From Polyangium aurulentum (GTDB lineage Bacteria; Myxococcota_A; Polyangia; Polyangiales; Polyangiaceae), in contig CAMCKZ010000023.1 of the NCBI GenBank assembly GCA_945875545.1, forward strand, positions 1 through 39,888: a stretch of 39,888 bases of DNA, written 5' to 3'. The notes under the pieces are model-generated. The model had not been told where the DNA came from. It made no database searches and saw only the letters and a list, made by a program, of their open reading frames with translations. Positions 17,105 to 37,059 of the stretch are shown one piece after another (the stretch's first letter is position 1; every line of letters starts with the position of its first letter). Position numbers and translations under genes: made by a program.

Positions 17105-17185
17105 CTCGCGTCGGTCACCATGCTTCGAGCTTCGCTTTATGTTTTTGGTTTTGGTCGCAAATGCGGCCGTCGAGGAGAGCAAGGA

Positions 17186-20100
17186 ATGCGTTCACTACAG
17201 CGACAATTGAGCATCGCCGCTCTGGGGCTAATGGCCGCCACAGCGACGATTGGCTGCGCGCAAGAGAGAGATCCGATCAGCCGGGTCCAGCCGCGAGCCC
17301 TGAAAAAATCCTGGTTTGTCGGCGATCTCAAAGATCCCAACGACGACCCCGAATTTTTCGCGCGAGCGATGGTCATCGACGCCGGTTACGGCGTGGCCCA
17401 AGATCTTCTGTTCACGTCGACCATCAACAAGGTTGCGCGCATCAAGTGGTCGATCGAAGAAGACCTGCTTGTCGGTCGTTCGTCCATGGAGCGCATTGTC
17501 GGAAGCGACGCGAAGGGCTCCAACGGCGGTAAAGACAACGACGGCGTTGTCGCATACGCATACCGTATCCAATCCCACTTCGACGTGCGCCGCGCGTACA
17601 ACGCCCAGACCGGCGAAGAGTCGAACGTCGTCGAGGAGAACTCCGTCGACCGCGCCTGGTACGACCGCGGTTACATGCGCGTCGACTGGTCGAAGAACCT
17701 GAACGCGAAGTCCTACGACTTCGATACGGTTTCATGGCTCACGGGCGCTGTCGGCATCAGCTACGAGGCCCTCGGCTGGACGGACCAAGACGCCAACCGT
17801 TACCCAGACAGCCAGCCACAATTCAACGACATCGAAACGCAGGGCTACTTCGACGTCACCAACCGCGTCTTCGCGACCCCAGGGCTCGTGAACATCCCCG
17901 CGGCCTGGGGCGGCGGCACGTACCCATCGTGTTTCCTTCCGCCAATCATTGCGGGCGGCACCGAGCCCGTCGGCATGTGCAACCCGGCGGAAATCGTCGT
18001 TCGCCAGTCATTTCTCCGTGTGGATCCTACGCAGCACGACTACGAGCCCACGAGCTACGACGGCCACAAGTTCGAGGTCGGCGGTCCGTTTACCACGGAC
18101 AAAAACGGCTACGCGCGCAACTACGGCATCACCGACGACCGCGCTCAGTGGCTGATCAACCGCTACAATATTTGGGAGCGCAGCCACTATTTCGCGGACC
18201 CAGCGGCCCTCACCGGCGCTATCGCGTGCAACACGCCGGCCACCACGGCATTCGGCGAGAACCCGCACCGCGACGGCAACAACGACGGCACCGAAGACGA
18301 GTGCGCAGCGGTCACCGCAGCCACGGAGGTCGGCGGGTCACACTGCGACGAAATCAGCAAGAAGTGCACGCTTCCGTACCGCTCGCGTACCGCCAAGCCG
18401 TTGCCTTGGTACGACAGCAACGACAGCGACCCGCGCTACGCCGAGCCTACGGCCCGCGCGACCAACGAGTGGGACACCGCTCTCCGCATGGCCGTTAACG
18501 CGGCTCGCTACTCCGAGTGCGCAGCCACGGCTGGCGCGGATTGCGCCACGACGTACCCGGTTATTCGCGGTCAGGTCGGCGAAGCCGAAGACCTCGTCGC
18601 GCTTACCCGCGACGTCGACGCATGCCGCCACGGCAAGACCACGGAAACCGACTGCAATGCGCTGGCTGACGCGGTCGGCCTGAAGCGTGACTACACCGCG
18701 GCGGTCATTGCCCTCGCGAAGGCACCGGAGATGATCGCGTTCTGCCACAAGGCAATGGGCGCCGAAAAACTCGCGGCTTGGAACTCCAAGTACACGATGA
18801 ACGCAACGGACCAGAACTACTGGGCTCCCGCATGCGGCAACATCGACGAGAAGAACCCACGCGCGGGCGACCTTCGCTACAACCTCTTGACGAACGTCTA
18901 CATTCCCCAGTCGCCGTCGCCTTGGGGCATCATGACCGACGCTAACGATCCGCTCACGGGCGAAACGATCGCGACCAGTGTCAATACGTGGACATACGTC
19001 AACGACCTTTGGTCGCAAGGCGCCATCGACCAACTTCGCTACATGAACGGCGAACTCGAAACGAGCGAAGTTACCACGGGTAAGCACGTCGCCGAGTGGT
19101 CCGCTGCCGCAGCGCGCGCCTCACGCGGTGGCGCCGAAATGCCCGTCTTCACCAAAGACGCCGTCGACACGCGTTTGGCCGGTGCCGCCAATGTCTCCCT
19201 CGCGGAGTTTCGCGCACAGTCCAATCGCTTCCAGAACGATCCCCGCATGAAGGCGCTCGCCGAAACCGTTCGCGAACAGGCTCAGCAGGTTCGCGCCGGC
19301 GCAGGTGCAGCTTCCGTCAACGGCCCCATCGTCAAGGCCCGCAAAGACAAGCTCATCGGCTCATCGATCGAGGCCTCGCTGACCACCGTCGCGATGCAAG
19401 ACACGCTGTCGCAAGCCGCTCGCGCCGCCGTTGGCCCAACCAACGCTGCGTCGCTTACGTCGCCTCTCCGCGGTCTCGACGCCACAGCGCTCCGCAACAT
19501 GCGCCGCGCATGGGACGCCGCCCTGGCCCAGCGGGGCGTCTGCATGATGAACGAGCTTCCGTCGCCCCTCGGCTACATCGGGCTCGGCAACATTCTGCAA
19601 GAGAAGTTCGGCAAGTTCAACAAGACCGACGCAAAGTCCGTGCAGTATGCACGCGGCGCGAAGATGCAGACCTACGTGGGCCAGCACGCTCACTACTCGG
19701 TTGTTTCCCACGAAATGGGCCACTCGATTGGCCTTCGCCACAACTTCGTGTCCTCGTCCGACTCGTGGAACTACCGCCCGCAGTACTGGCAGCTCCGCAC
19801 GAACAACAAGGCCGTGACGACCGCTTGCACCACGGCGACCGCCGATGGCCGCACCTGCATCGGCCCGCGCTACTACGACCCCGTCACCGACAACGAAGCC
19901 GACAACCTCATCCAGATGTGGATGCACTCGTCGACGATGGACTACGCGGGCGAGCCACTCCAAGACTTGCTCGGCCTCGGGGCGTACGACTTCGCCGCCA
20001 CGGAGCTTTTCTACGCGGACTCGGTCCACGTTTACCAGGGCGCGAGCTACAACAAGGGCACCGCGCGCTCGAACGGCGCCCTCGCCAAGATGGACCAATT

Positions 20101-22102
20101 CGGCGGTCTTATTGGCTGGGACTATTCGAACATCAACCACTACTCGGAATTCGACAAGTCCTACGACGCGCTCGTCCCGGGCTCCTGCAAAGCGGTCAAC
20201 CCCGACGACTTCAAGCCCGTGGCTTGGAATGAAGCGGCCGACGGCAAATTCAACGCTATCGTCGACGGCCACATCGTCAAGGACGAGGCCGGGGTCTACA
20301 AGCGCTGCAAGCAGCAGCCCGTCGACCACGTTCAGTACAGCAAAATGAAGGACAATCCGTCCGCGCAGTTCAGCAAGAACCGCCGCACGGCCTTCGACAG
20401 CGCCAATCGCACACGCGTTCCGTATGGCTTCGCGACCGATAGCTGGGCAGACCTCGGGAACGTCGCGGTGTACCGCCATGACAACGGGGCCGATTTCTAC
20501 GAGCAGATTGCCTTCTGGACGACCCAGATGGAAGTCGGCCACATCTTCGACAACTACCGCCGCGGCAAGGCTACGTGGAACGTGCGATCGGCCTACGGCC
20601 GCACGGTCGGCCGCTACCTAGAGAAGATCCGCGACGGCGGCAAGGGCATGGGGCTCTACTACAACATCTACCGCTCGATCTTGGGCGACCAAGGCACCGA
20701 CTTCGACGCCGCATGGCCGGGAATCCTTGCCGGGCTCGAGGCGAACGTGATGGCGTCGGGTATGGCGTTCGATCTCTTCACCCGGATGTTCCAGCGTCCG
20801 CAGTCTGGCGACCACGCGATGGTCACCGACATGTTTGGCAAGGTTCTCCGCTCGGAAGACGACTCGTCCTACGACGCTAGCATGGGCGATCCCGGCGACC
20901 CCGTCGAGGTAACGACCAAGGCGCTCTCCGTTCCCAACGGCGCAACCGGCATCCAAGACGCCACCAACCCGATGTTCCGCAACGTCAGCTGGGGCGGACG
21001 CCCCATCAACAACGCCCTGGCCGACAGCTACGACCGCGGCGACTACTCGAGCCGTTACACAGAAGGTGTGGGCTCGTACTACGAGAAGTCCTTCGTTCCC
21101 GTCATGCTGACCGAGTCCGAAGACAACTTCATCTCGTCCTCACGACGCGACTTCTTCGATGCTCGTTGGCGCAACATCTCGATGGCCGACATCTTCCCCG
21201 ACGGATTTCGCCGATTCATGGCGAACAACCTCGCCGACGACGACAGCATTCGCGGTGTGCGCGTGGCAGCTGACGCCAGCGGTAATCCGCTCAAGTCCGC
21301 CGCCGGTTACCCCGTCAACGGCCTCAGCTTCACCCAGTGGTGGCCGAGCGCGGGTCCAAGCGCTTGCTTCCCGAGCGCAAACAGCATGGTCTGCGCCCGC
21401 GACCAAATTGCGGGTGGGTCGGCGCTTCAGAACGTGGACTTCGGCGCGCTGTCGTTCAACAACGTCGCGATCGTCGAGCCGCAGGTTGCCTGGGAGCAAC
21501 AGAAGTTCCTCATCGTCAACACGGCGCTGAACCTCCCCGAGAACCAGCTCACCAAGTGGACCGACATGATGCGCGTCTACGACATCGGCGTCTCCAACGA
21601 CCCGGGTTTCGCAGCCAACGAGCGCATCGAGTTCTACAACCCGCAAGGCAGCAAGTTTGTGGCTCGCACTTACGGCACCGAGGTCATCTTCGGCAAGACC
21701 GTGCAGCGCGGCATCGCCGCACGCGTTCTTCAACACGCGAACGAGCTTCTCAACAAGGCCTACGTCACGACGAAGGTCACCGGAGGCCCCAGCACCTGGT
21801 ACGTGCCAGTCATCGGGTCGAACGGCCGCGCTCTGATTAAATTCCAGGGTCTCGAGCAGTCGTCGCGGGCGAACTGCCAGGCGGTCACGTCGACCAACCT
21901 CGCATTTAGCCCAAGCGCGAACTTCGGTACCGCCGGCGCCGCCTCCCTCGCGGAGTACGAAGCCGCATACAGCGCGTGCACCGTCTCGGCCAACCAGGCC
22001 GCAATCGCGGTCGAGAAGTACGTGTCCGTACCGACGTTCATGAACCAGGTCCTCGAACAACTGGGCATGATCCCGATGCACGGTCTCAAGGGCGTCTACT
22101 AG
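17186..22102 (+). CDS. Giant zinc-dependent metalloprotease lipoprotein (metzincin type)
   Basis: A 1638-residue secreted protein. The frame opens at 17120, but ATG 17186 is preceded by GAGGAGAGCAAGGA and begins a lipoprotein-like signal (basic n-region, hydrophobic core, ATIGC with Cys24). The -3 residue is Thr, so the lipobox is imperfect. The catalytic site is HEMGHSIGLRH at His842, an exact HExxHxxGxxH zinc motif, with a likely Met-turn SSTMDYAG at Met918. Together these define a metzincin. The long N-terminal half contains many Cys and a Ca-site-like DGNNDGTEDEC; the C-terminal 700 residues have no motif I recognise. Related very large 'zinc-dependent metalloproteases' are common in Myxococcota. 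Codons are strongly C-ending (TTC, AAC, GAC, AAG) compared with neighbours, suggesting high expression. The gene is monocistronic, ending at a strong terminator. It probably acts at the outer membrane or outside the cell; the substrate is unknown. Confidence 0.88.
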   Translation: MRSLQRQLSIAALGLMAATATIGCAQERDPISRVQPRALKKSWFVGDLKDPNDDPEFFARAMVIDAGYGVAQDLLFTSTINKVARIKWSIEEDLLVGRSSMERIVGSDAKGSNGGKDNDGVVAYAYRIQSHFDVRRAYNAQTGEESNVVEENSVDRAWYDRGYMRVDWSKNLNAKSYDFDTVSWLTGAVGISYEALGWTDQDANRYPDSQPQFNDIETQGYFDVTNRVFATPGLVNIPAAWGGGTYPSCFLPPIIAGGTEPVGMCNPAEIVVRQSFLRVDPTQHDYEPTSYDGHKFEVGGPFTTDKNGYARNYGITDDRAQWLINRYNIWERSHYFADPAALTGAIACNTPATTAFGENPHRDGNNDGTEDECAAVTAATEVGGSHCDEISKKCTLPYRSRTAKPLPWYDSNDSDPRYAEPTARATNEWDTALRMAVNAARYSECAATAGADCATTYPVIRGQVGEAEDLVALTRDVDACRHGKTTETDCNALADAVGLKRDYTAAVIALAKAPEMIAFCHKAMGAEKLAAWNSKYTMNATDQNYWAPACGNIDEKNPRAGDLRYNLLTNVYIPQSPSPWGIMTDANDPLTGETIATSVNTWTYVNDLWSQGAIDQLRYMNGELETSEVTTGKHVAEWSAAAARASRGGAEMPVFTKDAVDTRLAGAANVSLAEFRAQSNRFQNDPRMKALAETVREQAQQVRAGAGAASVNGPIVKARKDKLIGSSIEASLTTVAMQDTLSQAARAAVGPTNAASLTSPLRGLDATALRNMRRAWDAALAQRGVCMMNELPSPLGYIGLGNILQEKFGKFNKTDAKSVQYARGAKMQTYVGQHAHYSVVSHEMGHSIGLRHNFVSSSDSWNYRPQYWQLRTNNKAVTTACTTATADGRTCIGPRYYDPVTDNEADNLIQMWMHSSTMDYAGEPLQDLLGLGAYDFAATELFYADSVHVYQGASYNKGTARSNGALAKMDQFGGLIGWDYSNINHYSEFDKSYDALVPGSCKAVNPDDFKPVAWNEAADGKFNAIVDGHIVKDEAGVYKRCKQQPVDHVQYSKMKDNPSAQFSKNRRTAFDSANRTRVPYGFATDSWADLGNVAVYRHDNGADFYEQIAFWTTQMEVGHIFDNYRRGKATWNVRSAYGRTVGRYLEKIRDGGKGMGLYYNIYRSILGDQGTDFDAAWPGILAGLEANVMASGMAFDLFTRMFQRPQSGDHAMVTDMFGKVLRSEDDSSYDASMGDPGDPVEVTTKALSVPNGATGIQDATNPMFRNVSWGGRPINNALADSYDRGDYSSRYTEGVGSYYEKSFVPVMLTESEDNFISSSRRDFFDARWRNISMADIFPDGFRRFMANNLADDDSIRGVRVAADASGNPLKSAAGYPVNGLSFTQWWPSAGPSACFPSANSMVCARDQIAGGSALQNVDFGALSFNNVAIVEPQVAWEQQKFLIVNTALNLPENQLTKWTDMMRVYDIGVSNDPGFAANERIEFYNPQGSKFVARTYGTEVIFGKTVQRGIAARVLQHANELLNKAYVTTKVTGGPSTWYVPVIGSNGRALIKFQGLEQSSRANCQAVTSTNLAFSPSANFGTAGAASLAEYEAAYSACTVSANQAAIAVEKYVSVPTFMNQVLEQLGMIPMHGLKGVY

Positions 22103-22157: not shown

Positions 22158-22197
22158 AAACCCTCGGGGTCTTCGGACTCCGAGGGTTTTGTCTTTT
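22158..22197 (+). terminator. Strong intrinsic terminator after the metalloprotease gene
   Basis: A 14-base stem (22158-22171 with 22176-22189, one G-T pair) is closed by a TTCG tetraloop and followed by TGTCTTTTCC. This is a textbook rho-independent terminator and the clearest in the window. It isolates the metalloprotease gene from the dehydrogenase gene downstream. Confidence 0.92.
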
Positions 22198-22290
22198 CCG
22201 CCGTCGCAACCCGTGCAGTCTGCATGCCTATTGGGTGGGGCCATCGGTCAGTATTTTTCTGCACGGGAAAGCGCGCTAGGGCCATGGGGC

Positions 22291-23373
22291 ATGAGCATGC
22301 AGCGACCCGTGGCCGATTTTGGAGATGTGTTTGGCATTCATCGATCCCTGGAGCCCGCCGGGGCCTTGCCGCAGCCCGCCGAAAAAGTGTGTGCAGACTT
22401 CACGCATCTTTACGACGGGGAAATCCTTCTCGCGGTCGAGACTCTCAACGTGGACGCGGCGAGTTTTCGTCAAATGGAAGAGGCTTCGGCCCTCGCGGGT
22501 GTGGCCGCTGCGCTCATTGGAGAGGCGGTCGGTGAACGCGTCATGGCGACGGTAAAAGCCCGCGGAAAGCAGCACAATCCCGCGACGGGCAGCGGCGGAA
22601 TGCTCCTCGGCCGCGTGCTCCAAGTCACGCCGTCGCATCCGGCGTCGGCCTCGTTGAAGGTGGGTGATCGGCTCGCGACGCTTGTCTCGCTCTCGCTGAC
22701 CCCGCTGCGTCTCGACGCGGTGAAGGCCGTGCGCCGTGAGAGCACGCAGCTCGACGTGGAGGGTGAGGCGGTGCTGTTCGCGTCCGGCGCGTTCGCGGTG
22801 CTTGACGGCGGTCTGCCAGACAGACTGGCCCTCGCGATTCTTGATGTGGCCGGTGCGGCGCCGCAGGTCGCGCGCCTTGTGAAACCTTCCCAGACGGTTT
22901 TGGTGCTCGGTGCCGGCGGCAAGAGCGGCATTCTTTGCGTCGCCGAGGCGCGGCGATGCGGCGGGCCCGAGGCCGTGATTGTGGGTGTCGAGAATCACGA
23001 GCCGGCGGCCCGGGAGCTTCGAGAACTGGGGCTATGTACCTGTGTTATTTCAGGAAATGCGCGGGACGCAGTGGCCATGCGCCAGGCCGTTCTGGCGGTC
23101 ACGGGCGGACGCGAGGCGGACGTCACGTTTTCGTGCGTGAACGTGGAGGGGGCTGAGATGGCCGCCATCCTCTGCACGCGGCAACGCGGAACCGTTTACT
23201 TTTTTGCCATGAGCACGAGCTTCACCAAGGCCGCTCTTGGGGCAGAAGGAGTCGGCCGCGACGTCGACCTGCTCATCGGAAATGGCTACGCAGAGAACCA
23301 TGCAGACCACACGCTTTCTCTCGTGAAGAGTCTGCCCAATGTGCTTGCACTCTTCACGCATCGCTACACGTGA
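22291..23373 (+). CDS. kdd: L-erythro-3,5-diaminohexanoate dehydrogenase
   Basis: A 360-residue NAD(P)-dependent dehydrogenase. The frame reaches back to a TTG at 22189, but that lies in the terminator stem, so ATG 22291 (or 22297) is chosen. The sequence shows the distinctive KDD opening FGIHRSLEPAGALPQPA, then LYDGEILLAVETLNVDAASF, the NPATGSGGMLLGRV segment, GDRLATLVSLSLTPL, and a Rossmann loop VLVLGAGGKSG starting at about Gly207. This enzyme deaminates 3,5-diaminohexanoate to 5-amino-3-oxohexanoate in the lysine fermentation pathway. The partners normally found with it (kamA, kamDE, kce, kal) are absent from the window, so its role here could be lysine or beta-lysine catabolism with genes elsewhere, or a related reaction. 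It runs as a single gene, convergent with tamA. Confidence 0.88.
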   Translation: MSMQRPVADFGDVFGIHRSLEPAGALPQPAEKVCADFTHLYDGEILLAVETLNVDAASFRQMEEASALAGVAAALIGEAVGERVMATVKARGKQHNPATGSGGMLLGRVLQVTPSHPASASLKVGDRLATLVSLSLTPLRLDAVKAVRRESTQLDVEGEAVLFASGAFAVLDGGLPDRLALAILDVAGAAPQVARLVKPSQTVLVLGAGGKSGILCVAEARRCGGPEAVIVGVENHEPAARELRELGLCTCVISGNARDAVAMRQAVLAVTGGREADVTFSCVNVEGAEMAAILCTRQRGTVYFFAMSTSFTKAALGAEGVGRDVDLLIGNGYAENHADHTLSLVKSLPNVLALFTHRYT

Positions 23374-23467: not shown

Positions 23468-26400
23468 TTAGAAAAGGCCCACCGCGAAGTGGTAGGCGTA
23501 GCGGTCTTCCCAGCGGCGCGGCGCGAGATTCCATCCGACGTCGATGGCGATTGGAAAGAGCGGAGTGTCGACGCGCAGGCCTGTGCCGGCGGTGGCGCGA
23601 ATAGAAAAACTCTTCAGGTGATCGAGCAGGGCAAAGGGGTCTTGCCAAAGGTTCACGCCGTCCAGAAATGCCACCGTTCCGATCATGCCCGAGATCGGAA
23701 TACGCAGCTCCGTGCGCGGATTCACAAACAGATTTCCGCCACGCGAAACCACATTCGCCAGCGACAGATTCGCGTTCGCCTCGAGTTCGCTCGCGATGTC
23801 TTGGGGAACGAAGGCATCCTGCAAATACCCACGTACGGAGTCCATGCCGCCCAAAAAGAAGAGGCGGTCCGGGTAGGTCTTCGAGGTGGCGAGACTCGTC
23901 AAGTGGGCAACCTGCCCAAGGCGCAACTGGGTCGCCCACGTGATGCCAAAGGGGAGCGGCACGTAGGCTGAAACGTTCTGGGTGAGCTTGAAAAAGTGAC
24001 CCTCAAAACTCGACTTTCCGTCGGCTCCAGCGTCGGGAAAGGAGTCCACATGTTCGACGCCGCAGGAGGCAAAAAAGCCGCGGTGCGCGTTGAAGCCGTT
24101 GTCGCGAAGGTCGTAAGAGACCTGAAGTTTCTGAGCGATGACGGTACTTGAGCCGTTGGGAATGCGGAGCAAGCGAATGAGGTTCACGTCGACGACTTGC
24201 CCCGTCTGCTCGGCCAAGCCCTTCAAGTAATCTTCGACGGTGTTCGCATCGACGAAAAGGCGAATGGTATTGAGCTCGACGGCGGGCCCAACAGAGATGC
24301 GCAGGGCAGGCGTAGGCACCCACGACAGGGTGGCGGCAATCGTGCGTTTATCCAGGCGAAAGTCTCGTTGGAGGTCGCGAATCACCGCCACATCGAAGCT
24401 TCCGCGCACCGCGTTGCCGAGGCCCAAATCGGGAAAGGCCACGCCCGCGGTCACCCGGGCCACAAGCCGATCGACCATCTCGAGTTTGCCGATATTTTCT
24501 TTCGCGACCGAGTCGAGGAGCAGCAAGTCGGGCAGGTATGAGAGCTGTATACGCGTCGACGCACTAATACCATACGAAAGTATGTTGCGGTGTGTGTACT
24601 CGAAGGAGCTTCGGTAACCCTCGCCGGTGGATGCACCCGGACGCACTTCGACGATCTGGCGTTTGGCCTCGCGAATGGACACGATGACCCGCTGGCGCGA
24701 CGCGGGTACGGAGTCTTCTTCGAGGCCAATGGTGACGTTGGCGACCGCGGGAAGGGCAGCCACGGCTTCGCGGGACTTGCGCACGAAACTCGTGCGAAAA
24801 GGCTCACCAGGTTGCAGCGAGAGCCGGCGGCGCAAGAGGTCTTCCGACAGCGATTCGTTCCCTTGAATCACAATCGCATCGACGATGACGAGCGGGCCCT
24901 CGTTGACCTCGAAGCGCACGCGGCCTCGTTCGGCGTTGGACGAGGTATCGATCAGAAAACGCGCCGACGCGAAAAAATAACCGAGCTCTCGGTAGTGCTC
25001 CACGAGGCGATCGGTCGCCACTTGAAACACGGCGGTGCTCGCCGCGTCGCCCAGGCGCAGGTCGACCAAGTGCGCCGCATCGACCTCGCTCATGGCCCGC
25101 AATCCCGTGAAGGCTACGTCGGCAAGGTACGTTCTCGGCCCCAAGATGACCGGGAGACTAAGCCCCACGCCACGCTCGCAACCCGTGCTTTTTTGCTCGT
25201 GGGGATCGCACGCGGGCAAACTTTCGACGGGGCTTCCATCGGAGACGTTGTCACCCGTCGGAGTCGCCTCGCAACCGAGAGGTGAAGGCGTGGCGCAAGG
25301 CTTTCGCGACACAACGAGAGGCCCGGCCTGGGCCTGGAGGAAGCCCTCGTTGCGGTACGACTCCTCGATGTACTGGCGCACCCGATCGTAGGCGGGGCGA
25401 AAGAACGAGGTGCCGATGCGCTCAATGGTGACGTCGCCGACGGCGCTGCGAACGGCCTGCCCGGGCAAGCCTCCGTCGGTGGCGGGGCGAAAAAATGGCA
25501 GCCCCGGGAGGTCTTCTTGGAGGAGTTCGGTGGCGAGGCGATCGAGGTCCTCGACGGTGCGCGGAAGGGCCGCGAGCACGCCCTTCATGTCCTCGTCAAA
25601 GTGAGGAAATGACCTAGCCATAATCGGTACGCGTTCGTGCTCGTTCGTGACAATCACGAGGTCCGCGAGGTGGCCGCGGAGGCTGCGTCGAACCTCGGCC
25701 CGCACCTCCACGTCGAGGTAACCCCGGGCACCATAAAACGCCGCCACCACCTCGCTGAGGTGGGCCCCGTCGCGCCCCTCGCGGGTTCCGAAATCGGCGA
25801 GCTGCCGAAGCGCGTCTTCATCAAAGCGATCGACGCCCTCGAACTTGAGCCGAAAAAGCGCACCCGGTCGAACGCCGAACCGGACAGCCCCCGTTCCAGA
25901 CGATTGCACATCGACGATGGCCTCGAAGTAGCCCTGCGAGCGCAGCTCTTCCTGCAAAGAATCAGCGGTTACGCGCAGCCGCTCGTCGTCGATGCGGGCC
26001 CCGATCGCTGGCAGGTTTTCCCGCAGTCGGGCCTCCATTGGCCCCAAGTCGCGATCGAAATCCATGCGCGCCGCGGTGACCGGTCTTTCGGTCGCCCCGG
26101 ACACCGCGAGACGAAACGCCATGCGCAGCCCTCGTGCCGTCGGCGTCGCCGTCAGGCGTACGAGCGCGCCCACGAAACCCCGGCGCTCGAGCATGATTTC
26201 GACGCGCTTCACAGCCTCGGTCGCATCGCGACTGCTGAGGGCCTGCTCCGGCACCAGATGTGCAAAGCGTTGAATTTCATCGGTATTTGGCCCGGCGCCG
26301 TCCAGCGTGACTTCCAGCGAATCCACAATCCGGCGCGATACGAGGCGCAGCGTGAGCAAGACCTGATCGCCATCCTGCGACGCTTCGATGGCACCGTCGG

Positions 26401-26791
26401 CGTACGCCCCGGTGCCCAGCACGGCCCGCAACAGGCCCTCTGCCTCGTCTTCGCGAAACGGACGCCCGATAACTGGTGGCGCGGAGGGAAGCCCGTCTGT
26501 GGTCGTCCACGGGGCAGCATCGACCTGCACGGCGACACGGCTCACGAGCCGACCGCGCAGGCTTCGAGCGGCGCCGGGAGCAAGGAGGCTGAACGGGTCG
26601 TGAGTCTCGGCGGCCCGCGCATTTGCAGCCAGGAACAGCGCGAGCATCGACGCGGTTACGGCGGCGCGGGCCGTCTGACGCAGATTCGCCTGACGCAGAT
26701 TCGTCTGACGCAGCTTCGTCCGACGCGGGCCCGCCTCGTGAAACGCGCCAGCGACGAACGGCTCCAAAGCTCCAGACCGACCCCCCGTCAC
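23468..26791 (-). CDS. tamA: Omp85-family outer-membrane protein (TamA/BamA-like, enlarged POTRA region)
   Basis: A 1107-residue member of the Omp85 superfamily. The frame is open to GTG 26809, but GTG 26791 overlaps the tamB stop (GTGA) and has GGAG five bases upstream, so it is preferred. There is a long basic n-region with LRQT/NLRQ repeats, then a signal sequence ending near ANARA (about residue 60). After it, several POTRA-like repeats extend to roughly 730, then the D15/surface-antigen barrel. The barrel has typical late segments such as FFLGGMDSVRGYLQDAF (the VRGY motif) and ends in Phe. It is about twice the length of E. coli TamA. An insert at about 495-545 carries four Cys (499-538) between POTRA units. 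With TamB directly upstream in the same operon, a role in outer-membrane assembly or envelope lipid transport is likely. BamA itself is a less likely alternative. Confidence 0.88.
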   Translation of the reverse strand: MTGGRSGALEPFVAGAFHEAGPRRTKLRQTNLRQANLRQTARAAVTASMLALFLAANARAAETHDPFSLLAPGAARSLRGRLVSRVAVQVDAAPWTTTDGLPSAPPVIGRPFREDEAEGLLRAVLGTGAYADGAIEASQDGDQVLLTLRLVSRRIVDSLEVTLDGAGPNTDEIQRFAHLVPEQALSSRDATEAVKRVEIMLERRGFVGALVRLTATPTARGLRMAFRLAVSGATERPVTAARMDFDRDLGPMEARLRENLPAIGARIDDERLRVTADSLQEELRSQGYFEAIVDVQSSGTGAVRFGVRPGALFRLKFEGVDRFDEDALRQLADFGTREGRDGAHLSEVVAAFYGARGYLDVEVRAEVRRSLRGHLADLVIVTNEHERVPIMARSFPHFDEDMKGVLAALPRTVEDLDRLATELLQEDLPGLPFFRPATDGGLPGQAVRSAVGDVTIERIGTSFFRPAYDRVRQYIEESYRNEGFLQAQAGPLVVSRKPCATPSPLGCEATPTGDNVSDGSPVESLPACDPHEQKSTGCERGVGLSLPVILGPRTYLADVAFTGLRAMSEVDAAHLVDLRLGDAASTAVFQVATDRLVEHYRELGYFFASARFLIDTSSNAERGRVRFEVNEGPLVIVDAIVIQGNESLSEDLLRRRLSLQPGEPFRTSFVRKSREAVAALPAVANVTIGLEEDSVPASRQRVIVSIREAKRQIVEVRPGASTGEGYRSSFEYTHRNILSYGISASTRIQLSYLPDLLLLDSVAKENIGKLEMVDRLVARVTAGVAFPDLGLGNAVRGSFDVAVIRDLQRDFRLDKRTIAATLSWVPTPALRISVGPAVELNTIRLFVDANTVEDYLKGLAEQTGQVVDVNLIRLLRIPNGSSTVIAQKLQVSYDLRDNGFNAHRGFFASCGVEHVDSFPDAGADGKSSFEGHFFKLTQNVSAYVPLPFGITWATQLRLGQVAHLTSLATSKTYPDRLFFLGGMDSVRGYLQDAFVPQDIASELEANANLSLANVVSRGGNLFVNPRTELRIPISGMIGTVAFLDGVNLWQDPFALLDHLKSFSIRATAGTGLRVDTPLFPIAIDVGWNLAPRRWEDRYAYHFAVGLF
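26673..26732 (-). repeat. 15-base tandem repeat inside the start of tamA
   Basis: Three near-identical units at 26673-26687, 26688-26702 and 26703-26717 (gtctgacgcagattc type), with a decayed fourth to 26732. They encode LRQT-N, LRQA-N, LRQT in the basic leader before the signal sequence. The unit is a multiple of three, so copy-number change would keep the frame. Confidence 0.85.
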
Positions 26792-29700
26792 TCGAACTCC
26801 AAACGCCACTTCAGATCGAGCCCGAGGTTGCCCGAGGATGCTGAGGCAGCCGTAGTATAGTTATCGTATGACGCCTGCGCGCTCGTGGCCTTTCCGAAGG
26901 CCCACTCAATGATCGACCTGACGTCGCTGGACTCGCTGATGCCCGTTGTGACCGTGGCGCGAACGCTATCGCTCAGGCGTTTTCCTATGGTTATTTGCGG
27001 AACGGTGCGGGCCGCCCGCGGCGAGTAGCCCGCGCCGAGACGAAAGTCGTCGAGGACCCGAATCGTGTCTTTGACTGCCCGATCGGCTCCACTCAGGGTG
27101 CCGAGCGCACCAAGGGCACCGATGGCGGCGCCGCTGCGCAATTGGTCGAGTTCGGTGCGCGTGATGCCCATGGTCAGGAGCAGCACGATGTCGTCTTGGG
27201 CAAGCGGAGGATCGCTCGTCATGGCCAGGCGCAGATCGCTCGCATCCCCCGAAGCGCGCATGTCGATGCGCCACGTGGACGAGCCTTGCGTCGTACTCGT
27301 GGAGCTTGAACCTGACCCTGTGCCCGTCGCGCTTTTCTCGGAAAAACGCCGGTATTCCGTGTACGCCGATACGTCGACCATGGGCGCCACGCGCGTCGGA
27401 TCGTCGAAGCGAACCGTTGCGGTGCGAACGTCGAAGTCGTTCGTTGGAAAGTGAAACCGACCCCCAGAAAGGGCGTTCAATTCGCCTCGAAGTCCGAAGC
27501 GCTGATTCGTTCCGGTGACGCGAAGGCCGACCTTCCCGGTTTCGAGGAGAACCTCAACGAGGTTGTTGTGGATGCGAATGGGCGTGCCTGTTTTCACTTG
27601 AACGTCGAGGTCCAGCCAGTCGTTGGCGGGATCGTAGTGATCGACGCTGCGGCGCCCGGCCCCGTTCGCGGCAAAGCCCGTGGCAAGGTTGATCGACCGG
27701 ACGTATTCGGCGTCGCGAAGCGTGATTTCGCCCCCGATGCGCGCACGCTCTCCCGTGTGACGAAACGTTGGTACGACGATGTCGAAACGGCCATCGATGG
27801 AGGCGCGCGTGCCCTCGATCGGGGAAAAACGCACGCCACGAACACTCGCAACGGCTTCTGCGCGCACGGGCTCAAAGCCCGAAAGAATGACCGCGCCCGA
27901 GGCATCGAGGTCGCCGCCGCTCGTCCGAGCCGTTGCTTTGGTCAGCTCAAAGCGATTGGGAGAAAGCGTGAACTCTGCACGCACATCGCGCAGCGACGGA
28001 ACTCCCTCCCCGAGGGGAATCTCTTCGGCGTCGAGGTGAAAAGAGCCAGCCACCGCCGGAGACGCGAGGTCGCCGTACACCTCGACCTCGCCAGCCACGG
28101 TGCCCTTGGCTCGGCGAAGACGGGCGTCCAAACTCGCAAACGTACCGAGGGCTGTGGACGGCACTTCGAGATGGCCGCGAACGGTGCCCCGAGCGCCGAG
28201 ATTTTCAATGGCCAGCGACATGCCGATTGCGGTGGTCGATGACTCGTCTGCAGCAAGGAGCTGGACGTGCGTTTGCCCAAGCAAAACCCTGCCATCGGCC
28301 ACCTGGAGCTTGACCGGTTGGTCACCCTTCGTGAGCAGAATTCCCATCGAGGAAAAGCGAAATTGGGTGAGGTCGATGCTGACGTTGGCCTTCGCCCATT
28401 CGCTCGCGCGAAACGAGGCGACGCGGACGAGGCCTGTGACCCGCCCGCTCCACGGATTCGAGGCCGACGTTCCCTCCGTGGCCTCCCGAGCCTCGATGCC
28501 CTCCACCGCATCGGTTTCGCTGATCGGCGCAGGGGTGAACAAGGGCAGGGCGACGCGGGCGACGTCGAGATCGCGGAGATCGAATTCACCGATCAGCATT
28601 GGCGAATTTTCGACCGTCAGCTGAGCGTCTCGCACCAACAATTGCCCACCAAATAGCGACCCATCGATGCGATGAAGTCCCGATGGTGCACGGCGCGCGA
28701 TGTAGGCTGCGCGATCAAAAGGGCTGGAAATTGCCAGGCCGCAATGAGTTAGCGTTGGGCCTGGCTCGCCCCGCGATTGGCCCATGTGCCACGCGACATG
28801 CGACGGCCCAGTCTCGATTCCGTCGACCAGAGTCTGCTCGACATCGAAGAGGCCCTCAAGTTCGAGGGCGTCGATTCGTCCGCCGATGGTGCCATGGCCG
28901 GAAACAAATCCGTCGACTGCGGGTGCCAGCTGGCGAATCTTGTCGAAGCGCCGCATGGGCGTCGCGTCGAGAAAAAATTTGCCGTCCAGCTCGCCGCCGA
29001 AGGCCATTTCCACGGCCCCCGCAAGGCGGCCCACCGTTCGGGAATGGTCGTCAATATCCGCCTTTTCCAGGCGAAAAGAGCCTACGCGCAGCGTGGCACC
29101 GGAGAGTCCCGCGGACCGGTCGGTCCACGCCAAATCGACCGACGCACTGCCGCGATCAAAGTGCTCTTGGAAGGCCAAAACATCTTCCGCCCTCAGGTCC
29201 ACATGCACCGCGACGACCCCGCCACCACAGCGGTCGAGAGGGCCGCCGAGGTCCACGCGAAGGTTCGCTTCAAGCCCCAGCCGCGCATCGAAGCCATCAA
29301 ATCTGGGATCGTTGTCGAGGTGAAATGTCGCGAGAAGATCCCGAAGGCCAACGCTCTCGCCCTCGATCTGCCCGTGGATGACCAATGCCGCATCCGTGGA
29401 AAAATCCAGGAGCATCTGCGCGACATGGTAGCTGCTGCCCCCGCGCTTGACCGTGAATCCGCCGAGGTCAACCTTGAGACTTTGGGACCGCGCGTGCATT
29501 CCCTCCACGTGCCCGAGGGCGATGCCGCCGAACTCCAAATCTTTGCCCGTGGCCTGCACCTCGATGAGCGGATCGCCATTGGCACCGTGCACGTGCACCG
29601 ATGCGGACAGCACGCCGCTGACGGGCATTCCCGCGACCGTGCCCACGTCTGCGAGGTCAAGTTCGAGGGCATCCGCGTCGACTTGCAGGCCCCCCGCAAA

Positions 29701-31260
29701 ACCAATGCGCACCTGCGCGCCGCGGATCGACGAGCGTCCGAAGGAAACGTGGAGCCTCTCAAAAACGAGGTTGTGATCGTCGAGGTGAAGCTGGCCGGCG
29801 ATGCGCGTGGCGCCGAGCCCGACGACGCGTTTGGCCGAGGGATCGTCGACCGCGCGATCGTAAACACCCAGGGAATCTGCGCCTATTTCGATGGGACCGT
29901 TGAGATTGAGCGGCGAGAGCGTGCCGCTGCAATCGCCGACCACAAGGGACTGAACTTGCCAGGCCACATGGGGATGGGGACTCACGCCGAGGGCCTGCAT
30001 CAGTGAGAGAAAATCGATGCCGTCGCCGTTCAAGCGCGCGTGCAGAGGAATGCCCGGCGCGAAGGGCGCCACGCTCACATCGCGGAGCAGCGCAACGCCC
30101 TGGCCAACGCTGATCGACAGACTCGAACTCGAAACGACGTCGTTTTGAATTCTCAAGTCTCCATCGAGCCTGTCGACGAACTCAAATTTGCCGAGCGCAA
30201 TTCCCGACCCGCTGACCCGCGCCTCGAGATCAGGAAGCTTGTGACCCTCGCTCGAGTGAACCTTGAACGTGGTCTCGAAAATGCCCGCTGCGTCGATCGG
30301 CGCAAAGCGATTCGCAAGCGCGAGCGGCGCTCTTAGGACTCCTTCGCCGTGGTAGACCGGTGGCCCGTTCTCAAGAGATTTCCTGGTGATCGCGGTGTCG
30401 GTGAGGGATACACGCACCCACCGTGGATCGCCCGCCGCCGCGTTGCAAACCCGTTCACTGCGCGACGGCTCACGATCGATGAGGCCGTCCACGAGCAGGC
30501 GCCGGAGAACAATGTCCGTCGCATCAATGGTCACACGCGCGGAGAGGCGGCACAGGATGTCATCGTCTCGCGCCACATACGCTGTATGCTCTTCGGTTGC
30601 GGGTACGCGTCGGTGGCGAATCACCCACGACTCATCGGCGTCGAGGGCAACGTGACCGAGCATGCCGCTCGTTGGATCGTCCGTCAGGCGGGCGTCCGCA
30701 TCGAGCCCGTTAATCACAAAGAGGTCGCCCTCGATGTCGAGGTCGAGGGTGGCGTCGGTGACCGCCAAAGTTCGGATCGGCAGGTGGAGGACGCCGGGGC
30801 TTTTTTTGCCGTCGCCGTGCGGAAGTGAGAGATTTTTCACCTCGCCCGCCGCCACCACGACGCGAACGTGCGGCCTCTCGACGCGCAATTCGTCCACGAG
30901 AAATCGCCCCACGATAAGCGGCGAGAGGCGTGGACGCACCTCGAGGCGAGGAATGGAAAGGGCCGGATCGCTGCCGTCGAGAGAAGGAATAACGACGTTC
31001 GTCAGAACGATGCGGGGGGGCAAAAGTTCAACGTGCATGCCCATGGTTGCGGGAATGCCGAGGGTCAAAAGTTCGCGATGCACGCGCTCGGCAATCCATG
31101 CATCGACTGTGGGCAGACGCAGGGCCGCGACACTGGCGATGAGGAGCACGCTCACGCTTGCGAACAGGCCGGCCAAAAGCAGCACAAAGTTGTCGCTGAC
31201 CCGGCGCTTGGAACGCGCACGCACCACGTTTTCAACACGTGCGGGATCGAAGCCTTCCAT
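26788..31260 (-). CDS. tamB: TamB-like translocation and assembly module protein (DUF490, AsmA-like)
   Basis: A 1490-residue protein anchored by one N-terminal membrane helix (about 25-49). A very long periplasmic region of repetitive beta strands follows, the AsmA/TamB/VPS13-like beta-taco. The C-terminal DUF490 domain is recognisable: DLRLAMTSDPPLAQDDIVLL, the MGITRTELDQL helix, then the GAGYSPRA and TVPQITIGKRLSD strands and a barrel-like end in Phe-Glu. ATG 31260 is chosen over an in-frame TTG nine bases upstream. TamB proteins span the periplasm and act with TamA in outer-membrane biogenesis; lipid transport is now the favoured mechanism. The order here is tamB then tamA, the reverse of E. 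coli, with a four-base overlap. It follows the glycosyltransferase gene by 17 bases in the same operon. A Ser/Thr/Gly-rich loop lies just before the C-terminal domain. Confidence 0.9.
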   Translation of the reverse strand: MEGFDPARVENVVRARSKRRVSDNFVLLLAGLFASVSVLLIASVAALRLPTVDAWIAERVHRELLTLGIPATMGMHVELLPPRIVLTNVVIPSLDGSDPALSIPRLEVRPRLSPLIVGRFLVDELRVERPHVRVVVAAGEVKNLSLPHGDGKKSPGVLHLPIRTLAVTDATLDLDIEGDLFVINGLDADARLTDDPTSGMLGHVALDADESWVIRHRRVPATEEHTAYVARDDDILCRLSARVTIDATDIVLRRLLVDGLIDREPSRSERVCNAAAGDPRWVRVSLTDTAITRKSLENGPPVYHGEGVLRAPLALANRFAPIDAAGIFETTFKVHSSEGHKLPDLEARVSGSGIALGKFEFVDRLDGDLRIQNDVVSSSSLSISVGQGVALLRDVSVAPFAPGIPLHARLNGDGIDFLSLMQALGVSPHPHVAWQVQSLVVGDCSGTLSPLNLNGPIEIGADSLGVYDRAVDDPSAKRVVGLGATRIAGQLHLDDHNLVFERLHVSFGRSSIRGAQVRIGFAGGLQVDADALELDLADVGTVAGMPVSGVLSASVHVHGANGDPLIEVQATGKDLEFGGIALGHVEGMHARSQSLKVDLGGFTVKRGGSSYHVAQMLLDFSTDAALVIHGQIEGESVGLRDLLATFHLDNDPRFDGFDARLGLEANLRVDLGGPLDRCGGGVVAVHVDLRAEDVLAFQEHFDRGSASVDLAWTDRSAGLSGATLRVGSFRLEKADIDDHSRTVGRLAGAVEMAFGGELDGKFFLDATPMRRFDKIRQLAPAVDGFVSGHGTIGGRIDALELEGLFDVEQTLVDGIETGPSHVAWHMGQSRGEPGPTLTHCGLAISSPFDRAAYIARRAPSGLHRIDGSLFGGQLLVRDAQLTVENSPMLIGEFDLRDLDVARVALPLFTPAPISETDAVEGIEAREATEGTSASNPWSGRVTGLVRVASFRASEWAKANVSIDLTQFRFSSMGILLTKGDQPVKLQVADGRVLLGQTHVQLLAADESSTTAIGMSLAIENLGARGTVRGHLEVPSTALGTFASLDARLRRAKGTVAGEVEVYGDLASPAVAGSFHLDAEEIPLGEGVPSLRDVRAEFTLSPNRFELTKATARTSGGDLDASGAVILSGFEPVRAEAVASVRGVRFSPIEGTRASIDGRFDIVVPTFRHTGERARIGGEITLRDAEYVRSINLATGFAANGAGRRSVDHYDPANDWLDLDVQVKTGTPIRIHNNLVEVLLETGKVGLRVTGTNQRFGLRGELNALSGGRFHFPTNDFDVRTATVRFDDPTRVAPMVDVSAYTEYRRFSEKSATGTGSGSSSTSTTQGSSTWRIDMRASGDASDLRLAMTSDPPLAQDDIVLLLTMGITRTELDQLRSGAAIGALGALGTLSGADRAVKDTIRVLDDFRLGAGYSPRAARTVPQITIGKRLSDSVRATVTTGISESSDVRSIIEWAFGKATSAQASYDNYTTAASASSGNLGLDLKWRLEFE

Positions 31261-31277
31261 CGTTGCCAAGCCTAGTC

Positions 31278-35565: not shown

Positions 35566-35958
35566 ATGGCTGAAAGCTACGAAACCACAATCGGGCCGCG
35601 CACGCGCCTCCGGGCCCGCGTGCATGGCGACGGCGACGTGTCTCTTGAAGGGCAGGTCGAGGGAAACATAGCGCTCGGCGGCAAGCTCACCGTTCACGAA
35701 GGTGGCTCGGTCAAAGGCGAAACGAGTGCCAGCGATGTGGTTGTCCACGGCGACCTCGAAGGCCCGGTGCGTAGCGACGGAACGCTTCATGTGGGCTCCA
35801 CTGGCAAGGTCAACGGAGTCGTCAAAGTGACCGCGCTTTCCTTGGACGACGGCGCCCGTTTTCATGGGCAAGTCATCGCCTCCTTCGACCTTCCGGCGGA
35901 ACTCGCCGAAAAGATTTCCGCACCCGCGGCGGCGCCAACTGTTGGTGCCCGTCGTTAA
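35566..35958 (+). CDS. Bactofilin (first of three)
   Basis: A 130-residue bactofilin (DUF583), a cytoskeletal protein that self-assembles into nucleotide-free filaments from a right-handed beta-helix. The frame opens at 35494, but ATG 35566 is preferred. It has GGAG ten bases upstream and begins MAES, as does the third paralogue, whereas ATG 35557 has its GGAG only one base away. The repeating short-strand pattern (VSLEGQVEGNI, LTVHEGGSVKGE, LHVGSTGKVNGVV, LSLDDGARFHG) is the beta-helix core, with a short Ala/Pro tail. It is the first gene of a bactofilin trio running into pyrE. In myxobacteria bactofilins organise cell shape and chromosome-segregation proteins; which role applies here is unknown. 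Confidence 0.9.
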   Translation: MAESYETTIGPRTRLRARVHGDGDVSLEGQVEGNIALGGKLTVHEGGSVKGETSASDVVVHGDLEGPVRSDGTLHVGSTGKVNGVVKVTALSLDDGARFHGQVIASFDLPAELAEKISAPAAAPTVGARR

Positions 35959-36019
35959 TTTATTTCCATCTTCAAGAGCTTCAGCACGTGCAAATAAGCA
36001 CGCAGTAAGGAATGTCACG

Positions 36020-36331
36020 ATGAGCACGATCATTGCGGCGGGCATCACAGTCGAAGGCGAAATTGTTGCGGACGAAGACCTCCAAATTGGAGGAACCGTG
36101 CGCGGTAAACTCACGTCAAAAGACGTTGTGGCGATCGAGGCGGGCGCCGTGGTCGAAGCCGATGTTCAGGCAGCTTCGTTGACCATCGGCGGCAACCTTG
36201 TCGGCAACTCGCACGTCACCGAGCGCGTCGATTTGCTCGCGGGTGCCCGGGTCATCGGAAACGTGAAGGCTGCACGCATCACGATCGCGGAAGGCGCCCA
36301 GTTCAAGGGCAACGTTGACATGGACGTTTGA
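36020..36331 (+). CDS. Bactofilin (second of three), minimal
   Basis: A 103-residue bactofilin, nearly all beta-helix core. ATG 36020 has AAGG nine bases upstream and gives the natural N-terminus MSTIIAAGITVEGEIVADE. The open frame upstream of it runs through the previous gene and is not coding. The repeat pattern is clear (LQIGGTVRGKL, AIEAGAVVEADV, LTIGGNLVGNS, VDLLAGARVIGNV, ITIAEGAQFKGNV). It has almost no terminal tails, unlike the third paralogue, so it may be a filament core subunit whose behaviour is set by the others. It sits 61 bases after the first and 17 bases before the third bactofilin gene. Confidence 0.9.
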   Translation: MSTIIAAGITVEGEIVADEDLQIGGTVRGKLTSKDVVAIEAGAVVEADVQAASLTIGGNLVGNSHVTERVDLLAGARVIGNVKAARITIAEGAQFKGNVDMDV

Positions 36332-36348
36332 CGTCCACGGAGCAGACC

Positions 36349-37059
36349 ATGGCCGAGAGCACAGTTATCGGCGCGGGAACGCGCATCCGGGGTCGCATTC
36401 ACGGCGACGGCGATCTCCTTGTCGACGGCTTCGTCGAAGGCGACGTGAAAGTTAGCGGCGAAGTTGTCATTGGCGCGTCGGGCCTCGTGGGCGCGGCGGT
36501 GCAAGGCTCGCGCATCACGGTTCGCGGTGCGGTTCGCGGCGACCTTTCCGCGACCCTGTCAATCCACTTGGAAGAGGGCGCTCGCGTCGTGGGTGCCGTT
36601 CGTGCGCCGCGCGTCTCGGTCGCCAGCGGCGCGATGTACCGAGGTATTTTGCACACGGCAGCACCCGGTGAGCCCGTGCCGACGATCGCAGGCCTCGCGG
36701 TCACGCCCGCGGTTCAAACGCCAGCGGCGAAGGCTCAAGCTGCACCTCTCGCGCGTCCCGCGGCACCGGTCATACAGGCTGGTCTCGCCGTCCCAGGCCG
36801 CGCGCCGGCTCCGGCGGTCATCGCGGCACCCGCCGCACACGCCGTAAACGTCGCACCCGCCGCACCCGTCGTAAACGTCGTAAACGTCGCTCCTGCCGTG
36901 GCCCCAAGTGCCGCCGGGCATGGCTTTTCGGCACCCCTCGTGTCGGCCACCGCTGAATCAGATTCAGACGGAGAAAACCTGGACACCGACGACGCCGAGG
37001 GCACCATGCCAGCCTTGCGCCGGGGTGCTCGGGGCCAGGTCGCCAAAAAGAGGGGCTGA
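36349..37059 (+). CDS. Bactofilin (third of three) with long Ala/Pro/Val tail
   Basis: A 236-residue bactofilin. ATG 36349 has GGAG six bases upstream and is chosen over a TTG at 36328 that overlaps the previous stop. The first 110 residues are the beta-helix core (MAESTVIGAGTRIRGRIHG, LLVDGFVEGDVKV, ITVRGAVRGDL). A tail of about 120 residues rich in Ala, Pro and Val follows, including repeats of the VNVAPA / VVNVVNV type. An acidic patch comes next (ESDSDGENLDTDDAEG), and the protein ends with a basic RRGARGQVAKKRG. A long disordered tail ending in basic residues is the pattern of bactofilins that recruit partners or contact membranes or DNA. Its stop is three bases before pyrE. Confidence 0.9.
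   Translation: MAESTVIGAGTRIRGRIHGDGDLLVDGFVEGDVKVSGEVVIGASGLVGAAVQGSRITVRGAVRGDLSATLSIHLEEGARVVGAVRAPRVSVASGAMYRGILHTAAPGEPVPTIAGLAVTPAVQTPAAKAQAAPLARPAAPVIQAGLAVPGRAPAPAVIAAPAAHAVNVAPAAPVVNVVNVAPAVAPSAAGHGFSAPLVSATAESDSDGENLDTDDAEGTMPALRRGARGQVAKKRG

Follow-up and report, generated by a model that had tools for sequence, protein, structure and literature searches.

The window (the whole 39,888-nucleotide stretch of DNA that was analysed) carries a gene for a giant predicted lipoprotein metzincin, the features of which are collected in Table 1. The sequence CGAGGAGAGCAAGGAATG at 17186 is conserved in the nearest relative, and the bases further 5' show indels; an alternative in-frame ATG lies at 17120. 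The gene was the sole match in the genome of origin (3.5 Mb in 188 contigs, 97.5% complete). Ten terminator-like sites were predicted between 16900 and 22300, against 5.7 (sd 2.7) in shuffled sequences. The one at 22158-22189 has the most base pairs of them, and its hairpin has a fold z of -4.0. No sigma70-like promoter was found in the same interval, where 0.9 would be expected by chance.

Table 1. Features of the giant metzincin gene (positions in the window)
Feature	Position	Strand	Remark
Ribosome-binding region CGAGGAGAGCAAGGA	17171..17185	+	Conserved in nearest relative
Giant lipoprotein metzincin gene	17186..22102	+	1638 aa
Lipoprotein signal peptide and lipobox up to Cys24 (+1)	17186..17257	+	Signal peptide read from sequence
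N-terminal part, residues 25-544, Cys-rich	17258..18817	+	From about residue 262 aligns with DUF5117/DUF4953 core
DGNNDGTEDEC, calcium-loop-like, residues 363-373	18272..18304	+	Sequence pattern
DPLTGE region, residues 588-600	18947..18985	+	Counterpart of DPRTG in DUF4953 proteins (hhalign)
Zinc site HEMGHSIGLRH, residues 842-852	19709..19741	+	Predicted ligands H842, H846, H852 and catalytic E843
Met-turn, M918 to Y920	19937..19945	+	M918 and Y920 kept in 57/57 genes
C-terminal tail, residues 959-1638 (680 residues)	20060..22099	+	No known family
Predicted intrinsic terminator	22158..22189	+	14-pair stem, TTCG loop, T-rich tail

The gene is preceded by hisD and followed by a diaminohexanoate dehydrogenase-like gene, beyond which Omp85 and TamB-like genes lie on the other strand; these neighbours in the window gave no functional hint. 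A hisD-like ORF lies directly 5' of the metzincin gene in 7 of the 25 loci that were clustered, and because of this the gene is regarded as an old resident. The downstream neighbour (22189-23373, + strand) scores just above the NCBIfam cut-off as an L-erythro-3,5-diaminohexanoate dehydrogenase, an enzyme of lysine fermentation. At 23468-31269 (- strand) an Omp85/POTRA protein of 1113 aa, whose first Pfam or NCBIfam match begins near residue 546, adjoins the TamB-like protein, and two consecutive bactofilin genes are found at 35864-37059 (+ strand).

An earlier note on this DNA had described a lipoprotein with many Cys, a calcium-binding-like stretch, an HExxHxxGxxH site (His842) with a Met-turn (Met918) in mid-protein, a long uncharacterised tail and a strong terminator of its own. 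All of these features were recovered. The protein contains 22 Cys, and the pattern of the DGNNDGTEDEC stretch, which resembles a calcium loop, recurs in 20 of the 25 near members of the family and in 8 of the 33 others. A Pfam search at E<=1 matched no family in residues 25-544 and 959-1638, an NCBIfam search gave no match, and a PDB sequence search gave none at E<=10. The Pfam M6 profile matched nowhere in the genome of origin and neither did its control. AlphaFold2 models of residues 25-1180 and 545-1638, built from alignments of 6 and 7 rows, had pLDDT values of 32.1 and 32.6, respectively, too low for either model to be used.

Lipoprotein signal and predicted location

The N-terminus combines a signal peptide with a conserved lipobox Cys, the pattern by which bacterial lipoproteins are recognized. 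Of the 58 family genes, 57 have this Cys24; L116 lacks it in the alignment. Export of the giant metzincin, its lipid anchor and its disulfides are predictions. The residue at +2 of the mature protein is Ala in all 25 near members; that at +7 is Pro in the window protein and in 23 of the 25, with Ala and Ser in one member each. In M. xanthus, according to PMC3222651, Lys at +2 marks inner-membrane lipoproteins and Ala at +7 those of the matrix, and lipoproteins of the outer membrane have no conserved residue. As Ala at +2 and Pro at +7 fit neither the inner-membrane nor the matrix signal, an outer-membrane site is suggested by exclusion, under sorting rules that are those of M. xanthus and not of this lineage.

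The M. xanthus protein FibA is an M4 peptidase and belongs to another family than the giant metzincin. FibA is described as an extracytoplasmic lipoprotein and metalloprotease and is named as the most abundant matrix lipoprotein (PMC3222651; PMC3236237). The giant metzincin is likewise predicted to be an extracytoplasmic lipoprotein and metalloprotease; it differs from FibA in having Pro at the +7 position where the latter carries the Ala of its matrix signal.

Zinc site and family relation

The family alignment comprised 59 rows but, as L001 and L059 are the same contig, 58 distinct genes. One of these genes ends before the active-site region, leaving 57 to be scored there. H842, E843, H846, H852, M918, Y920 and D935 are all kept in every one of these 57. 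Position 849 is Gly in 43, Ala in seven and Ser in seven of the 57 rows that are longer than 1250 aa. The Met-turn reads SSTMDY (residues 915-920, M918 codon at 19937) and lies downstream of the HExxHxxGxxH motif, the combination that defines the metzincin clan in sequence terms. The spacing from H842 to M918 is 76 residues in the window protein and 57-94 across the family. Zinc binding and proteolytic activity are predicted from the conserved residues. Inactive partners had been suspected in tandem pairs from eight rows that were missed by a pattern with Gly or Ala at position 849; the idea was dropped, since seven of the eight keep the ligands and the eighth ends before the region.

Metzincins of the reprolysin, astacin and serralysin types share the zinc motif and the Met-turn with the giant protein, and their Pfam profiles matched it below cut-off, at the motif only. 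A Tyr two residues past the Met, as present here, is a feature of astacins and serralysins. The Pfam family that did exceed its cut-off was DUF4953 (PF16313; 25.1 bits against 24.2), with a match confined to the motif at profile positions 6-36 of 316. Of the 21 diverse members of the family profile A3, 20 also hit DUF4953 at E<=0.01; the remaining Pfam matches among these members were motif-level hits to peptidase families in a few and DUF4215 in one.

Two DUF5117-type proteins, L129 and L130, whose open frames have 893 and 937 aa, were aligned to give a two-row template, with which profile A3 (21 rows, also used for the phylum search) was compared by hhalign. Two collinear blocks were obtained. 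One covers residues 262-601 and scores 96.5; the other, with a score of 82.6, covers residues 836-949 and so runs from the zinc site via the Met-turn to GxYD. The reversed template scored 17.5 and 20 column shuffles at most 24.0. A template ending 30 columns before HExxH still scored 82.5, whereas none of 20 shuffles went above 21.5. By this alignment with the L129+L130 template the homology to PF16313 extends beyond the motif. Against L130 alone only a 22-column motif was aligned, and the global mode gave no sensible alignment. DUF5117 (PF17148) had no Pfam match at E<=1 in residues 25-544 and none in the genome of origin; the residues from about 262 nevertheless align with the end of the DUF5117 region in L129 and L130.

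Because of the two blocks and their controls the giant metzincin is read as an enlarged and diverged member of the DUF5117-DUF4953 superfamily. Judged by profile alignment, it is a diverged, much enlarged relative of these Met-zincins and not an orphan, and on the same basis its great length is due to insertions into and extensions of the DUF5117-DUF4953 core. Both groups have an HExxHxxGxxHxF site, an SVMDY-type Met-turn followed by GxYD, and a DPxTG motif with one DxRY and one WN/WD segment ahead of it. The giant protein differs in being about 1.8 times as long as L129 and L130, with Cys-rich insertions and a long extra tail, in its lipoprotein character, and in the spacing from His to Met, which is 76 residues compared with 23 in L130 and 38 in L129.

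A match to the protein was present in 49 of 59 related genomes, its own included. The PF16313 search was positive in 43 of 57 genomes of the order. Profile A3 at E<=0.001 found 63 of 112 phylum genomes, counted by profile match alone; five of these are weak (E 1e-8 to 1e-3), one of them being the genome of L129. Clear DUF5117-type proteins occur in 2 of the 112. Up to 10 A3 matches were seen per genome, and a single gene can yield several. The named relatives from the close-relative scan were six loci in MAGs designated as myxobacterial or 'deltaproteobacterial', among them a Labilithrix sp.; a single gene in two pieces accounts for two of these loci. Giant metzincins thus appear to be a large protease family that is spread through the phylum and apparently unstudied: open-access literature searches brought up nothing on the protein or its family, judged by title. 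The relevant passages of PMC9304148 deal with a different protein, CarG.

Codon usage and predicted abundance

Codon usage was ranked in a sample of mechanically called genes of at least 200 aa, taken from about 0.78 Mb of the genome of origin plus the window (0.82 Mb of 3.5 Mb) and including some false ORFs. The first sample held 223 non-ribosomal other genes and the enlarged one 456 (457 with the target). Shorter genes were dropped, as was one + strand ORF that reaches 200 aa but lies opposite the ribosomal genes of L040. The target was scored from the ATG at 17120, and ten genes of the ribosomal cluster served as the CAI reference. The metzincin gene has the highest C-fraction at NNY codons of the 457 genes (0.893; mean 0.655, sd 0.080), the highest CAI (0.782; mean 0.644, sd 0.041) and the lowest ENC (35.6; mean 44.9, sd 3.5); in GC3 it is exceeded by 6 of the 456.

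The ribosomal-cluster genes themselves are only mildly biased (mean CAI 0.689), and for this reason GroEL was considered the better yardstick, being used instead of EF-Tu because the EF-Tu genes are cut at contig ends. The two GroEL loci were kept outside the ranking and scored apart. L131 (C-fraction, CAI and ENC of 0.848, 0.771 and 35.5) goes beyond the metzincin gene on ENC only; L132 (0.972, 0.800 and 31.1) exceeds it on all three measures. The genome of origin thus holds two GroEL genes of unequal codon bias, with C-fractions of 0.85 and 0.97.

Among the top 15 genes by CAI were those for a C13-peptidase protein, an SdhB-like protein, flagellin, SHMT, glutamine synthetase and GyrA. The same 15 also include genes whose products are not known to be abundant, namely a DUF4340 protein and a fatty acid desaturase, so that the CAI scale is an imperfect measure of abundance. 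The C13-peptidase protein, second by CAI, is encoded at L058:15186-17492 (- strand); it has 768 aa and combines a periplasmic-binding-like part with a C13 (legumain-type) peptidase domain. The flagellin gene at L147:9678-10511 (+ strand) is strongly codon-biased in a myxobacterial-type genome, and so are the adjacent ABC_transp_aux and DUF4340 genes at L143:12415-15331 (+ strand), which we take to be those of a gliding-type transporter.

C-ending bias exceeds that of the pooled flanking genes in 54 of 57 family members (24/24 near relatives and 30/33 others), and it exceeds that of every single flanking gene in 22 of the 57. As the members are related and in part share a locus, they do not count as independent trials. 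Below the pooled flanks were L116 and both copies of L113, a locus with two flanking genes only. Horizontal transfer as the source of the odd codons is disfavoured because of this bias in all near relatives and of the hisD-like ORF that recurs upstream. The earlier note had seen codons more C-ending than in the flanks, had proposed CAI against ribosomal genes as a check and had taken the gene to be highly expressed. The codon preference was borne out and extends to the relatives, the check came out in favour of the proposal, and high expression holds as a prediction from the extremes of CAI, C-fraction and ENC. High abundance of the giant metzincin is thus predicted by a proxy, the rank of its codon bias within this gene sample.

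Proposed role and tandem pairs

The best explanation, to which we assign a probability of roughly 60%, is that of an abundant, outer-membrane-anchored zinc protease that digests external protein. An exported and lipid-anchored zinc endopeptidase, in which Cys-rich insertions and a long C-terminal tail have been added to a DUF5117-DUF4953 Met-zincin core, would be made at a very high level, would most likely be held on the outer membrane, and would cut proteins outside the cell and in this way feed the bacterium. The least certain part is the nature of the substrates, which would be proteins from outside, as nutrients or from prey, and not those of the cell's own envelope; feeding on external protein is a conjecture. 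As a whole, the earlier note's interpretation of the protein as a possible major surface or predation enzyme is partly supported.

An abundant protease for maintenance or maturation of the cell's own outer-membrane or periplasmic proteins would agree with the single copy in a small 3.5 Mb genome and with the hisD-like ORF directly before the gene in 7 of 25 loci. However, 10 of the 59 related genomes have no match, some of these misses possibly being assembly gaps, whereas other genomes hold several copies, including 13 loci with two side by side. Because presence and copy number are patchy in this way, feeding fits better than housekeeping, and we consider a maintenance role unlikely. It is very improbable that the protein is mainly a structural component of surface or matrix, with proteolysis as a side function: none of the 57 genes, even among the distant paralogues, has lost the catalytic residues, even though the extreme predicted abundance, the many Cys and the long tail that matches no known family would suit such a role. 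Such a role would also have a precedent in M. xanthus, where the metalloprotease FibA gives rise to a fragment that is a spore-cuticula protein (PMC3236237).

Instead of abundance, the codon pattern could also reflect local composition, or selection for translational accuracy in a long protein rich in Cys. The gene is unusually long and Cys-rich, and its Ala, Pro and Leu codons are closer to the genome average than to GroEL. On the other hand, the codons for Phe, Asp, Asn, Val, Ile, Arg and Lys are like those of GroEL, the C-fraction is high throughout the gene (0.84-0.95 in eight bins; the final one, of 6 codons, stands at 1.00), and the next long genes of the window, of 1113 and 1493 aa, reach a CAI of 0.65 and 0.64 only. 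This account is distinctly unlikely. If the protein does reach the abundance to which its codon usage points, an unstudied giant surface protease would take up a large share of the protein made by many members of this phylum, which is known for its predators, and the single-copy gene would offer a handle on extracellular protein digestion in myxobacteria beyond M. xanthus.

More tentatively, and we regard this as doubtful, the outer membrane of many Myxococcota may be densely coated with giant lipoprotein Met-zincins of top abundance, which would digest protein on contact and, in some lineages, would act as fixed pairs of two unlike proteases with adjacent genes. Two co-oriented copies are present in 13 of 20 selected loci (L099-L108 and L111-L113), from which no rate can be derived because the 20 were picked partly for tandem matches. 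That tandem partners form complexes is a guess. In a tree of 57 rows with SH-aLRT support, from which the incomplete second copy of L102 was left out, 11 pairs sort first copies with first and second with second, in three lineages, and each of the six first- or second-copy clades has 100% support. Since a copy's place within its pair agrees with its clade in these 11 cases, old and co-inherited pairs of unequal partners are real in this set. The two copies of L113 group together.
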